From positions 1,798,001 to 1,862,000 of the forward strand of contig NZ_CP044231.1 of assembly GCF_008727755.1 (NCBI RefSeq): 64,000 nt of DNA, written 5' to 3'. Origin of the DNA: Microbacterium caowuchunii. Lineage in GTDB: Bacteria > Actinomycetota > Actinomycetes > Actinomycetales > Microbacteriaceae. Both the position numbers and the translations under genes were made by a program. This document shows, piece by piece, positions 54,638 to 58,380 of this stretch (positions within the stretch are counted from its first letter, which is position 1; the number at the start of each line of letters is the position of its first letter). The notes beneath the pieces are model-generated. The model did no database searches. It saw only the letters and a program-made list of their open reading frames with translations, and had not been told where the DNA came from.

Positions 54638-55240
54638 ATGGCCCTCGCACCCGTTCCCGCGCGCCGTACCGTCCTGGCAGCCTGGCTCATCGTCGCCGGG
54701 ATGATCGGGTGGTGGGCGGCGTTCTCGCTCACGATGGAGCGCTTCCACCTGCTGATGGACCCGAACGCGACGGCGGGGTGCGATTTCAGCGTGCTGGTGC
54801 AGTGCACGGCCAACCTCGAATCCGCGCAGGGCAGCGTCTTCGGCTTCCCCAACCCCATCCTGGGCCTGGCGGGATGGGTCGCGCCCATCGTCGTCGGCGT
54901 CGCGATCCTGGCCGGCGCGCGGTTCGCGCGGTGGTTCTGGGGCCTGTTCTGGGCCGGCCTCCTGTTCGCCTTCGTCTTCGTGTGCTGGCTGATCGCCCAG
55001 AGCATCTTCGTCCTCGGCACCCTCTGCCCGTGGTGCATGGTCACCTGGGCGGTGACGATCCCGACGTTCTACGCCGTCACCATCCATCTCCTGCGCGACG
55101 GGATCGTGCCCGTGGGCGAACGCGCCCGTCGCGTGGCCTCGGCTGCCCTGCCGTGGGTGCCGCTGATGGCGTTCCTCAGCTACGTCGTGATCGCGGTGCT
55201 GGCCGAAGTGCGCCTGGACGTGTTCTCCTCCCTGCTCTGA
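54638..55240 (+). CDS. Vitamin K epoxide reductase (VKOR) family protein
   Basis: 200 residues with five membrane helices. The loop cysteines are C48 and C56 (AGCDFSVLVQCTAN) and the active pair is C130-P-W-C133 (LGTLCPWCMVTW). In actinobacteria VKOR homologues re-oxidise a DsbA-like partner using menaquinone, which drives disulfide formation in exported proteins. No thioredoxin-like partner is fused or adjacent. The next operon encodes exported proteins, which might be clients, but that is inference. Confidence 0.94.
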   Translation: MALAPVPARRTVLAAWLIVAGMIGWWAAFSLTMERFHLLMDPNATAGCDFSVLVQCTANLESAQGSVFGFPNPILGLAGWVAPIVVGVAILAGARFARWFWGLFWAGLLFAFVFVCWLIAQSIFVLGTLCPWCMVTWAVTIPTFYAVTIHLLRDGIVPVGERARRVASAALPWVPLMAFLSYVVIAVLAEVRLDVFSSLL

Positions 55241-55340
55241 TCCCTCCGCTTCCTCTACCGCGGACCGCCGGTTGTCCACAAGCGCGGATCAGCGGATCCG
55301 CCGCGTGGCTACTGTGGACGCGAGCACGAGGGGGATGCCG

Positions 55341-55745
55341 ATGACGCTGGAGACGGACACGCTGGCCGCGCTGGAGGCCGCGCGCACGCGGGTGAGGGAA
55401 CAGACCGAGCGCGCACGGACCGCCGCGAGGGATGCGGCGAGGATGTCCGAGGATGTGCGCACGCTCACCCGTACTGCCCACTCCCCCGGAGGTGAGGTGT
55501 CGATCACCGCGCAGGCGAGCGGGGTGGTCGAGCGCGTGGAGCTCTCGCCGCGGGCACGGGAATGGGATGTCGCTGCGCTCTCCCGGCTCCTCACCGACAC
55601 GATCCGCGAGGCGCAGCGGTCGGCTTCGTACGCCGCCGTGGAGCGGATGACGGAGTCCCTTGGCGACGGGTCTCCCCTGGTGGCGGACATCCGTGGCCGG
55701 GTCGCGGCGCAGTACGGCACCGACCCCCGCACCGAGCTGCGTTGA
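55341..55745 (+). CDS. YbaB/EbfC family protein (first gene of the ESX-like operon)
   Basis: 134 residues. A long N-terminal helix (LAALEAARTRVREQTERARTAARDAARMSEDV) is followed by a beta part (GGEVSITAQASGVVERVELSPRA) and a C-terminal helix, the YbaB/EbfC pattern. Such proteins can bind DNA, and divergent ones occur beside WXG100 genes in actinobacteria. Codon choice: GAGGGGG then 6 nt to ATG 55341. The stop overlaps the next gene in TTGA/TGA. It may be a chaperone or substrate rather than a nucleoid protein. Confidence 0.8.
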   Translation: MTLETDTLAALEAARTRVREQTERARTAARDAARMSEDVRTLTRTAHSPGGEVSITAQASGVVERVELSPRAREWDVAALSRLLTDTIREAQRSASYAAVERMTESLGDGSPLVADIRGRVAAQYGTDPRTELR

Positions 55746-55753
55746 GCACCCTG

Positions 55754-56050
55754 ATGGACCATCTGGAAGTCACGCCCGCGCGCCTGCAGACGGCGGCTAC
55801 GGAGATCCGGCACGCGGCGAAGGCGATCGATGAGCTGGTCGCGCAGCTGGAGCAGGACGCCGCGGGCCTTCGTGCGCAGTGGGCGGGCGAGGCACACGAT
55901 GCCTTCGACACGGCGCAGGCCCGCTTCACGGAGCTCATGGCCTCGCGGACGGAGCTGGTGGGCACGATCTCCGCCGCCCTGGAGAATCTCGCCGTGGGCT
56001 ACTCCACCCTTGACCTGGAAGCGGCACGAGCATTGGGGGCGACGGCATGA
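55754..56050 (+). CDS. WXG100 family (ESAT-6-like) protein
   Basis: 98 residues of two helices around the W-x-G turn: HLEVTPARLQTAATEIRHAAKAIDELVAQLE, then LRAQWAGEAHDAFDTAQARF. Near the C-terminus YSTLD matches the YxxxD/E export signal of type VII secretion substrates. A TTG at 55742, overlapping the previous stop, would add 4 residues and is an alternative start. The next gene overlaps by ATGA. No EccC-type ATPase is in the window, so export would rely on a system encoded elsewhere. Confidence 0.9.
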   Translation: MDHLEVTPARLQTAATEIRHAAKAIDELVAQLEQDAAGLRAQWAGEAHDAFDTAQARFTELMASRTELVGTISAALENLAVGYSTLDLEAARALGATA

Positions 56051-56484
56051 TCCGACGACGTACAGGATGGCTCGCTCTCGGTGGCATGCTGGCTGCGCTC
56101 GCGCTGGGGGGCTGCTCGCAGGCGCCCGGCACGGACGACTCGTTCACGGAGCGCATCCCCGCGGCGCTCGAGCGCTCCGACCTCGGGGTCACCGAGTCAT
56201 GGGCAGACAAGGGCGTCGACGGGCTGACCACGTACCTGTCGGTCGGCGTGAGCCTCGACCGGGACGTGATCTCCGCCGGCGAGCTGCAGCAGCTCATCGC
56301 GATCGTGGTCGACGAGAACACGGTCTCCGTCCGAAATCTCCGCCTCTCCGTCGAGGACGAGGCAGGCGAGGACATCGATATCGTCCCGCTCCTGGAGCAG
56401 CTGGGGGCCGACCCGCTCGTGGGCACGTTCGTCAGCATCACGTTCGACGAGGCGACCGCCATCGCGGAGGGAGCGGCCTCATGA
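56047..56484 (+). CDS. Small exported lipoprotein
   Basis: 145 residues. RRRTGWLALGGMLAALALGGC is a lipoprotein signal with lipobox LGGC (C at ~23). The mature part (~120 residues) has ITVSVE-like beta stretches such as YLSVGVSLDRDVISAGELQQLIAIVVDENTVSVRNLRL; I do not recognise the family. It is coupled on both sides by 4-bp ATGA overlaps within the WXG100/lipase operon, so it likely sits on the membrane outer face and assists or anchors the secreted partners. Confidence 0.83.
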   Translation: MIRRRTGWLALGGMLAALALGGCSQAPGTDDSFTERIPAALERSDLGVTESWADKGVDGLTTYLSVGVSLDRDVISAGELQQLIAIVVDENTVSVRNLRLSVEDEAGEDIDIVPLLEQLGADPLVGTFVSITFDEATAIAEGAAS

Positions 56485-56804
56485 GCGGGACCGCCGCGAA
56501 CCAGCGGATCCGGCTCGACGGCGCGATCCTCTCACGTCAGGCCTCCATCCTCGGCGATGCGTCGAGGACGTTCGGGACGGTCTCCGCCCGCGTGGACGCG
56601 CCGCTGTCCGCTGACGCGTTCGGGGTCCTCTGCCAGGGGATCCTCGTGCCGGCCGTCACGACGCTGGCCGGCCGGTCACGGGAGCTGCTGGATTCCGCCC
56701 GCACCCTCAGCGACCGGATGTCGACCGCCACGGAGGCGGCCACCACGGCGTTCGCCGCGCTGGAGGACGAAGCGGTGCAGACGTTCTCGGGAGATCCCTC
56801 GTGA
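56481..56804 (+). CDS. Second WXG100-like helical protein
   Basis: 107 residues, predicted all-helical, in the size range of WXG100 and other ESX substrates. ILSRQASILGDASRTFGTVSARVDAPLS and LAGRSRELLDSARTLSDRMSTATEAATTAFAALEDEAV are two long amphipathic helices. There is no W-x-G at the turn and no YxxxD tail, so it could be the partner that lacks the signal, as CFP-10/ESAT-6 pairs also differ. It overlaps both neighbours by 4 bp. Confidence 0.75.
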   Translation: MSGTAANQRIRLDGAILSRQASILGDASRTFGTVSARVDAPLSADAFGVLCQGILVPAVTTLAGRSRELLDSARTLSDRMSTATEAATTAFAALEDEAVQTFSGDPS

Positions 56805-58336
56805 GCGCGGGCAGCGCGATCTGCGGGGAGATCCGGGGCGGCGGCTGGGCGAGCGGTCTTCCGACGAGCGGGCCGGGCGGGGATTCCTGCGCCGACATCC
56901 CGGGCATCGCCGGACTGCTTCTGGACTACGTCCGTCCGCTGCGGGACTGGTTCGATCAGCTCCTCGGGGATTCGGCCGGGGTGGCGGGATTCGCCGCGTC
57001 CTGGGAAGACTCGGAGCGGTCGTTGCTTCAGCTGCATCCCGAACTCGTCGCCGGCCGAGCGGCGCTGGCGGACCTCGACGGCCGCACGGTCCGGGCGCTC
57101 CGGGAACGCTACGAGGACCTGATCGCGCTCAGCCGGGATACCGCGGAGTGGACCGGGGCGACGGCTGCGGCACTGCGGACCGCGTCCCGCATCGTCGATG
57201 CGACGAGGTCCTTCGTCTGCGATCTCCTCGTACAGCTCTCCCGCTTCGCGGACGAGCTGTTCTCGTTCACGCTCAACCCCTTCGAAGCCGCCGACCGGGT
57301 GCGTGATTTCGCCGACGCGGCGTTCGATCTGGTGGAATCCGCCGGCCGGCTCGTCCAGGACCTGCTCGAAGCGCTGTTCGCGCTCGCCTCGCTCGTCCAG
57401 AAGCTCGTCCCGATCGTGGCGGAGGGGCTCGACCACCTGCGGGAAATCCTCGCCCAGATGGCACCGATCGTCGGGCTTCTGGGCGGACTCGCCCTCGGCG
57501 GGCTGCCCGGCGGGGTCGGCGGCCTGCTGCTCGGGGGCGCTGTCCAGAACCTCCTGCAGGGCTCCTCGGACGTGGAGGAGCTGGATCCGGACGCCCTCAG
57601 CGGAGATCGCCGGGAGGCGTGGGAGAGGTCGCAGAAGGTCACCGAGATCACGTCGCTCGCCGATCTCGTCGGGGTCAACGGCACCACGGACGGGATGGGC
57701 GGCGAGGACGCCACCGTCATCGATGTGAAGAAGGTGGTCGGTCCGGACGGCTCCGTGCACTACGTCGTGTCGCTCCCCTCGACGCAGGACTGGCAGCTGG
57801 GGGCGGACGCCGGGGCGATGAACGACCGGGATTCGAACCTGGCCCTCCTCATGGACAACCCGCTGCTGCGCAGCGCCTACGAGCGCGCCGTCCTGGAGGC
57901 GATGCAGGATGCCGGCGTCCCGGCCGGCGCGGACGTCGTGCTCACCGGGTTCAGCCAGGGCGGCATCATGGCCGCGAACCTCGCCGCCGACGGATCGTTC
58001 CCGTACAACACCGTGGGTGTCATCACCAACGGATCGCCGATCGACACCTTCGACATCCCGCCGCACATCCCGGTGTACGCGTTCCAGCACGCGAACGACC
58101 CGGTGCCGATGCTCGACGGCAGCGTCGTGGGGGGCACGCCGGCGAACGTGCACCAGATCGTCCTGCCGCCCGCGTCGGATCCCATCGCGGCGCACAACAA
58201 CGAGCTGTACACCAGCTCTGTACGCGACTGGGAGGAGCGCTACGCGACGACCCACGGCGCTCCCCCGCCCTGGCTGGACCTCTTCGGCGGTCAGGTGGTC
58301 GATCACAGCGTCTTCACGGCCGCCGAGGGCCGATGA
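56801..58336 (+). CDS. Large ESX-linked protein with C-terminal serine hydrolase (lipase-like) domain
   Basis: 511 residues. The N-terminal ~240 residues are mainly helical (DYVRPLRDWFDQLLGD, ELVAGRAALADLDGRTVRALRERYEDLIALSRD), then a Gly/Leu-rich hydrophobic stretch (~220-250). The C-terminal part has a nucleophile elbow G383-F-S385-Q-G-G, an acid candidate D433 (HANDPVP) and a His candidate H502 (VVDHSVF). This fits an alpha/beta-hydrolase lipase or cutinase. It ends the operon and starts at GTG 56801 overlapping the previous stop (GTGA). The helical front may be the export or pairing module; the substrate is unknown. Confidence 0.85.
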   Translation: MSAGSAICGEIRGGGWASGLPTSGPGGDSCADIPGIAGLLLDYVRPLRDWFDQLLGDSAGVAGFAASWEDSERSLLQLHPELVAGRAALADLDGRTVRALRERYEDLIALSRDTAEWTGATAAALRTASRIVDATRSFVCDLLVQLSRFADELFSFTLNPFEAADRVRDFADAAFDLVESAGRLVQDLLEALFALASLVQKLVPIVAEGLDHLREILAQMAPIVGLLGGLALGGLPGGVGGLLLGGAVQNLLQGSSDVEELDPDALSGDRREAWERSQKVTEITSLADLVGVNGTTDGMGGEDATVIDVKKVVGPDGSVHYVVSLPSTQDWQLGADAGAMNDRDSNLALLMDNPLLRSAYERAVLEAMQDAGVPAGADVVLTGFSQGGIMAANLAADGSFPYNTVGVITNGSPIDTFDIPPHIPVYAFQHANDPVPMLDGSVVGGTPANVHQIVLPPASDPIAAHNNELYTSSVRDWEERYATTHGAPPPWLDLFGGQVVDHSVFTAAEGR

Positions 58337-58380
58337 CGAAGGGCGCCGCGTCCGGGATCGGATGCGGCGCCCTTCGTCAG
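58335..58380. terminator. Bidirectional terminator between lipase operon and ndk
   Basis: A perfect 16-bp stem (58335-58350 with 58365-58380; TGACGAAGGGCGCCGC) around a 14-nt loop. It overlaps the last two bases of the lipase stop codon and ends 4 bp from the ndk stop. Confidence 0.9.

Follow-up and report, generated by a model that had tools for sequence, protein, structure and literature searches.

Gene content of the cassette

The 64,000-nucleotide stretch analyzed here (the window) is part of the chromosome of Microbacterium caowuchunii, a single contig of 3.26 Mb whose named close relatives are Microbacterium and other Microbacteriaceae. Positions 55341-58336 of the window hold five genes on the + strand, which a first-pass annotation had described as an ESX-like cassette. 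All five open reading frames (ORFs) were found where this annotation had placed them. They encode, from 5′ to 3′, a YbaB-family protein, a WXG100 protein, a lipoprotein, a helical protein of 107 amino acids (aa), and a 511-aa effector that joins a helical N-terminal module (N-module) to a lipase-like domain. We consider it probable that the effector is an ESX-exported lipase toxin with the lipoprotein as its immunity protein, and that the genes form a polymorphic toxin cassette of the T7SSa class of type VII secretion systems (T7SS).

The first gene (55341-55745; alternative upstream ATG possible at 55335) encodes a 134-aa protein that matched the YbaB family PF02575 with 48.7 bits (cut-off 25.5), in agreement with the annotation. 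Its score against the nucleoid-protein equivalog TIGR00103 was 18.9 bits, below the cut-off of 49.45, and an ordinary YbaB/EbfC nucleoid protein was rejected for this reason. The second gene (55754-56050; alternative TTG start at 55742) encodes a 98-aa protein with matches to PF06013 (56.4 bits, cut-off 27.3) and TIGR03930 (55.3 bits, cut-off 44.85), which bears out its assignment as WXG100. It has a WAG turn and, as had been noticed, a YxxxD-type tail (YSTLD at the C-terminus); among the 24 cassette copies of WXG100 examined, YxxxD was present in all 24 and WxG in 17. The 145-aa lipoprotein (56047-56484), our candidate immunity protein, was also correctly recognized: its lipobox is LGGC, and Cys23 (codon 56113-56115) was invariant in 34 aligned rows. 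It matched no Pfam family at E≤1 and gave one chance NCBIfam match (E 0.1), and its AlphaFold2 (AF2) model had a mean confidence score (pLDDT) of 86.8. The fourth protein (56481-56804) is helical by sequence inspection and has no family match in Pfam or NCBIfam. Its description as a second WXG100-sized helical protein holds for the size of 107 aa, and no WXG100 model matched it. The 4-bp overlaps said to run throughout the unit are present at three of the four junctions (56047-56050, 56481-56484, and 56801-56804); at the first junction, a 4-bp overlap arises only from the TTG at 55742, and an 8-bp gap remains when translation starts at the ATG at 55754.

The effector gene (56801-58336) was delineated by its ORF, the alignment of its homologues, and the AF2 model, and the predicted fusion of a helical region with a lipase-like C-terminal domain was confirmed. 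The N-module (residues 1-252; 56801-57556) consists of long helices (AF2 residues 58-88, 95-153, and 160-252). The lipase-like domain spans residues ~283-490 (57647-58270). Ser385 (codon 57953-57955), the candidate nucleophile within GFSQGG, is invariant in the effector alignment, and Asp433 (58097-58099) and His465 (58193-58195), the putative acid and base, are each conserved in at least 90% of it. GFSQG was present in 118 of 120 effector homologues among the matches listed. The 511-aa protein gave only sub-threshold matches to hydrolase families (e.g., PF02230, 16.1 of 23 bits), and the Foldseek matches listed for the effector fold include a cutinase (E 0.04) and PETases (E 0.06 or worse). 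The predicted fold is that of an alpha/beta hydrolase, and the domain resembles class-3 lipases with Ser-Asp-His candidates, as in the lipase toxin TslA. Among the Pfam matches of the 511-aa protein, there was no LXG model, and none of the window proteins had a PPE domain above cut-off or a match to PF08237. PPE similarity in relatives is weak (L105, 21.5 bits, cut-off 26).

Recurrence of the cassette and its link to ESX machinery

Regions were retrieved around 40 effector matches, with 20 more regions and 5 named loci added. Starting from the window genes, profile hidden Markov models (HMMs) were built with the regions retrieved up to that point and scored in six frames; a component was counted if a match of more than 17 bits lay no further than 5.5 kb away on the same strand. 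Component counts were taken from these six-frame matches, as a simple gene caller misplaced some starts in the retrieved regions. Dropping L019 and L020 as repeats of L054 and L059 left 38 lipase-type loci from 40 rows. Both effector halves were present at 25 loci; all 25 had YbaB and the helical protein, 24 had WXG100, and 22 had the lipoprotein (by HMM). Because the components recur across these loci, the composition of the cassette is not due to chance, and the same grouping exists in other genomes. A cassette unique to one strain, with disrupted homologues elsewhere, is ruled out: effector matches of at least 300 bits were obtained in 22 of 198 same-genus genomes, host included, with the effector in one frame in 20 and split in 2. 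The two split effectors (G007:C1:648665-650189, L071; G076:C21:59776-61175, L069) are either broken genes or assembly errors, and a lipoprotein gene adjoins both. A role in anti-phage defense was also rejected, with no PADLOC match at E≤0.1 for any of the five proteins.

The first-pass annotation had supposed that a distant type VII system serves the cassette. The host genome does carry a complete EccC (C1:2939397-2941415; TIGR03924, 793.5 bits), in an ESX locus 1.08 Mb from the cassette, so an orphan cassette without machinery anywhere in the genome is ruled out. Close to EccC are EccB (178 bits, cut-off 154), EccD (110 bits, cut-off 94.95), two mycosin-like proteases (235.8 and 82.7 bits, both below the cut-off of 278.75), and two pairs of WXG100 genes. 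EccC matches of at least 770 bits were obtained in 50 of the 198 genomes (52 rows, with G073 and G150 entered twice), and all 22 effector genomes were among them (hypergeometric 1e-15); the genomes are related, so these counts are not independent events. Genomes with an N-module match lacking the lipase behave similarly, with 23 of 24 among the matches listed carrying a high-scoring EccC (exception, G064). Cassette and ESX-type EccC are at most ~6 kb apart in G127, G149, and G076, where inspection also showed EccD- and mycosin-like genes. These patterns support an ESX-linked substrate cassette that would be served by a distant secretion locus.

The genomic site of the cassette is variable. The names rne, ndk, VKOR, purB, def, and SDR used here for flanking genes are tentative and were given by inspection. 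Of 59 genomes, 56 contain a match to the protein encoded at 54638-55240. At 24 of its best 30 loci, it lies cassette-free between ndk- and rne-like genes; the cassette is on its ndk side in 3 of the same 30 and on its rne side in 3. Given these sites with the cassette, on either side, and without it, gain or loss has probably occurred here more than once.

Exchange of C-terminal domains on the N-module

The N-module also occurs with other C-termini. Related N-modules bear a TNT domain in four proteins (L093, L103, L110, and L112) and an ADP-ribosyltransferase exotoxin domain in one (L113), both assigned by Pfam; the rest of the 14 Pfam-scanned relatives with an N-module or lipase had no toxin family above cut-off. 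The effector thus has the organization of polymorphic toxins, with a conserved N-terminal carrier and exchangeable toxin C-termini. At the TNT loci L093, L103, and L112, and at L105, which has no TNT match, there are homologous genes for 99-124-aa proteins (35%-63% identity); no such gene was seen at the TNT locus L110. Among the 27 N-module loci with other C-termini, YbaB was present at 19 and a homologue of the helical 107-aa protein at 20. The order YbaB, helical partner, N-module is kept in Saccharopolyspora (L022 and L023), so the carrier extends beyond Microbacteriaceae.

From this distribution, we propose that the 107-aa protein is a co-targeting partner of the N-module and that YbaB may be, by analogy, an effector-specific chaperone or targeting factor. 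A broader reading is that YbaB, the ~105-aa helical protein, and the N-module together constitute a general, previously undescribed carrier for exchangeable antibacterial ESX toxins in actinobacteria, namely a membrane lipase, an NAD glycohydrolase, and an ADP-ribosyltransferase. YbaB would be the effector-specific chaperone, and the immunity protein would be sited at the place of toxin action, as a lipoprotein in the case of the lipase and as a lipobox-free protein in the case of TNT. We regard this broader reading as an even call.

The first-pass annotation had interpreted the cassette as an exported lipid- or polymer-degrading unit. Such a nutritional exoenzyme, an ESX-exported lipase that degrades environmental lipids or polyesters with the lipoprotein as its surface holder or cofactor, would agree with the lipase/esterase fold, with the cutinase and PETase matches, and with a lipoprotein partner. 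It would also have a precedent in mycobacterial LipY, in which a triglyceride lipase domain follows a PE domain and which is reported to be exported to the cell wall (PMC4536007). Against it stand the TNT and ADP-ribosyltransferase domains on related delivery genes, the tandem and solitary lipoproteins described below, and the accessory site. We did not retain this interpretation, because the N-module swaps toxin domains and the genetic pattern of the lipoprotein fits an immunity partner, and we consider it improbable.

Linkage of the lipoprotein to the lipase-like domain

A lipoprotein HMM match adjoins 34 of the 38 lipase-type loci versus 0 of the 27 N-module loci with other C-termini (32 of 36 without L098 and L101, which were retrieved because of their lipoprotein). 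At L068, L070, and L072, a lipobox protein is present at the lipase-type locus but is not matched by the HMM; the L070 protein is probably related remotely to the window lipoprotein (probability 93%), and no relation is evident for the L072 protein (4%). No lipoprotein accompanies the second copy in L076, which belongs to the purB type described below. A 44.6-bit lipoprotein match in G164 was not recovered by the lipoprotein HMM in L100. Judging by the component counts per locus class, the presence of YbaB and of the helical protein tracks that of the N-module, and the lipoprotein tracks mainly the lipase domain.

The linkage is maintained when the N-half changes. Twelve loci (L077-L086, L098, and L101) have the lipase domain behind a different N-half, together with a different small partner, and all 12 have a lipoprotein match (only 19.7 bits in L083). 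At least four of them (L077, L078, L084, and L086) lie near a ~1500-aa FtsK-type ATPase (TIGR03924, ~300 bits). Different-N-half loci also have, 3′ of the lipoprotein, a gene for a ~210-225-aa protein that starts with an LPGxW-type motif (L077:10669-11343, L080:6663-7322, L084:11126-11752, and L178:6373-7050) and has no Pfam match above cut-off. L077 also has a 185-aa protein of similar appearance beside a non-lipase effector.

The lipoprotein gene varies in position and number. It lies 5′ of the effector in the window and in L054, L055, L058, L060, L061, L062, and L071, and downstream elsewhere. Several copies were found in G127 (3), G150 (4-5), G073 (4), G176 (2), and G129 (2), and copies without an effector in the retrieved region were found in G020, G085 (two), G146, and G089. 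The solitary lipoprotein of G020 is 75% identical to one of the G150 copies, and relatives keep the whole cassette at this site. The gene to the right of the G020 lipoprotein is 94%-95% identical in G150, G084, and G073; the gene to its left has a match in G073 alone (79%), and more distant genes match at 78%-95%. Mean pairwise identity, calculated over the 21 of 25 loci having all parts, was lowest for the lipoprotein (0.36), followed by the helical protein (0.44), WXG100 (0.46), YbaB (0.47), the N-module (0.52), and the C-domain (0.65). Lipoprotein distances correlated with those of the C-domain at 0.74 and with those of the other parts at 0.69-0.79, and because the former value is no higher than the latter, it is no evidence of co-evolution of lipoprotein and C-domain. 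A mobile, duplicating, sometimes solitary lipoprotein beside the lipase domain is a pattern that would fit a toxin-immunity pair.

Two sets of loci weigh against a toxin with a dedicated lipoprotein immunity protein. The first set comprises 4 of the 27 non-lipase N-module loci (group 3, L087-L090), where a 188-aa lipoprotein, probably a remote relative of the window lipoprotein (82%), adjoins the effector. This probable relationship lowers our trust in the immunity role and raises that in another explanation, namely a lipase toxin whose accompanying lipoprotein serves the export route, as a docking factor or foldase, with immunity encoded elsewhere or unneeded. The extra conserved ~210-aa gene 3′ of the lipoprotein at different-N-half loci points the same way. 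This explanation does not account for the N-module TNT and ADP-ribosyltransferase loci without a lipoprotein or for the lone lipoprotein that persists at an effector-free site, and we judge it quite unlikely. The group-3 effectors themselves (L087:6233-8099, L088:8973-10839, L089:6583-8449, and L090:6946-8803) share a conserved ~170-aa C-terminus, which has no Pfam family (L087 scanned) and is a candidate new toxin domain.

The second set comprises wider relatives of the lipase-like domain. At E≤1e-20, matches to the C-domain profile occurred in 196 of the 297 genomes from the order, representing 64 of 94 genera, and most rows among the matches listed span only residues ~298-480. Among the wider relatives that were readable (17 of 20 retrieved; L168, L169, and L176 were left out), 10 have no lipoprotein beside the hydrolase, and 6 of these 10 adjoin a purB-like gene. 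The other 7 have a lipoprotein, and 6 of them share the small partner and the ~215-aa LPGxW gene of the different-N-half loci. Given this spread and the lipoprotein-free relatives, the lipase-like domain reaches wider than the toxin reading. The purB-adjacent hydrolases without a lipoprotein occur in several genera (L164:7441-9047, L166:7493-9066, and L167:7872-9463; also L171, L173, and L175), and in most of them a small partner gene (~80-130 aa) precedes the hydrolase gene. Their recurrence, together with the wide profile spread and the high conservation of the C-domain, would suit a lipase that acts on the producer's own envelope, remodeling its membrane or aiding ESX in crossing the envelope, with the lipoprotein as regulator. 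Such a function is hard to reconcile with the exchange of toxin domains on the N-module and with the fact that most genomes in the genus lack the cassette, 28 of the 50 that carry an ESX-type EccC among them; we give it little credence.

According to the toxin-immunity reading, YbaB as chaperone, WXG100, and the helical 107-aa protein would guide the helical N-module of the effector to the ESX machinery encoded at the locus 1.08 Mb from the cassette. Once exported, the C-terminal domain would act as a class-3-like serine lipase or phospholipase on membrane lipids of neighboring bacteria, and the lipoprotein on the outer face of the producer membrane would bind the lipase and thereby protect the producer.

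Comparison with known systems and minor features

Lipase toxins of T7SS have been described before, as have lipase-like domains of polymorphic toxins. The closest analogue is the TslA-TilA-TlaA1-TlaA2 cassette of the Staphylococcus aureus T7SSb, which likewise comprises a T7SS-linked lipase-fold toxin, a helical targeting domain, small helical partners, and a lipoprotein gene with tandem and toxin-free copies (PMC10730906). TslA lipase is reported there as a phospholipase A that TilA binds with nanomolar affinity (PMC10730906). According to the same text, TslA has its lipase domain first and its helical domain last, whereas the window effector is N-helical and C-lipase; the TslA cassette is described as four genes without YbaB; TilA is a DUF576 lipoprotein, whereas the window lipoprotein matches no Pfam family; and TslA is served by T7SSb, whereas the window cassette is tied to an ESX-type EccC. 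By these tests, the window cassette appears analogous to TslA-TilA rather than a member of its family. LXG and other T7SS polymorphic toxins are similarly outlined as having a conserved helical N-domain, a swappable toxin C-domain, and an adjacent immunity gene, and the lipase-like toxin domains Tox-ABhydrolase-1 and 3 have been predicted in this literature (PMC3482391, PMC11217815). Unlike LXG toxins, the window effector has no LXG match, belongs with an actinobacterial ESX system, and has a YbaB gene in its unit.

The reading of YbaB as a chaperone follows the proposal made for EspL, a YbaB-domain protein that is reported to stabilize the ESX-1 substrates EspE/F/H (PMC6319747) and is likened here by domain. 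EspL is presented there as one ESX-1 component, whereas window-type effector cassettes have their own YbaB gene. PE/PPE hydrolases (LipY and PE-PPE domain proteins) also combine a helical ESX targeting region with a serine hydrolase domain; they differ from the window effector, which has no PF08237 match and whose relatives show only sub-threshold PPE similarity. Neither a lipoprotein nor a YbaB partner is known to belong to the PE/PPE hydrolase type.

A literature search, made largely without subscription journals, returned no text linking YbaB cassettes to T7SS toxins and no mention of an ESX lipase paired with an immunity lipoprotein in actinobacteria. So far, T7SS are known to kill other bacteria mainly in Bacillota, and actinobacterial ESX systems have been studied mostly for their part in virulence. 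As a compact unit in which a candidate antibacterial ESX effector comes with a matching immunity candidate, the cassette is open to experiment in a genus that includes culturable environmental strains. It also offers a place to test YbaB in ESX secretion as a chaperone or DNA binder, a question also raised by EspL. If the toxin reading is true, the lipase and lipoprotein of Staphylococcus T7SSb and those described here would be convergent solutions, and secretion machinery best known from tuberculosis bacteria would have an antibacterial use.

The host genome has two other orphan WXG100 cassettes. One, also an ESX substrate cassette, lies at C1:2567007-2568982 (L017:7008-8983), with WXG100, an EspC-like neighbor (PF10824, 22.9 bits, cut-off 23.5), and genes for 161-aa and 254-aa proteins. 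The other lies at C1:2485440-2487396 (L018:9441-11397), and its 151-aa and 403-aa neighbors have no NCBIfam match. In the window, a 21-bp hairpin (58334-58379; minimum free energy -47.3 kcal/mol, z -8.3) occupies the interval between the effector gene and the convergent ndk-like gene. It was missed by the terminator scan because it has no long T run, and it is probably the transcription end of both genes.

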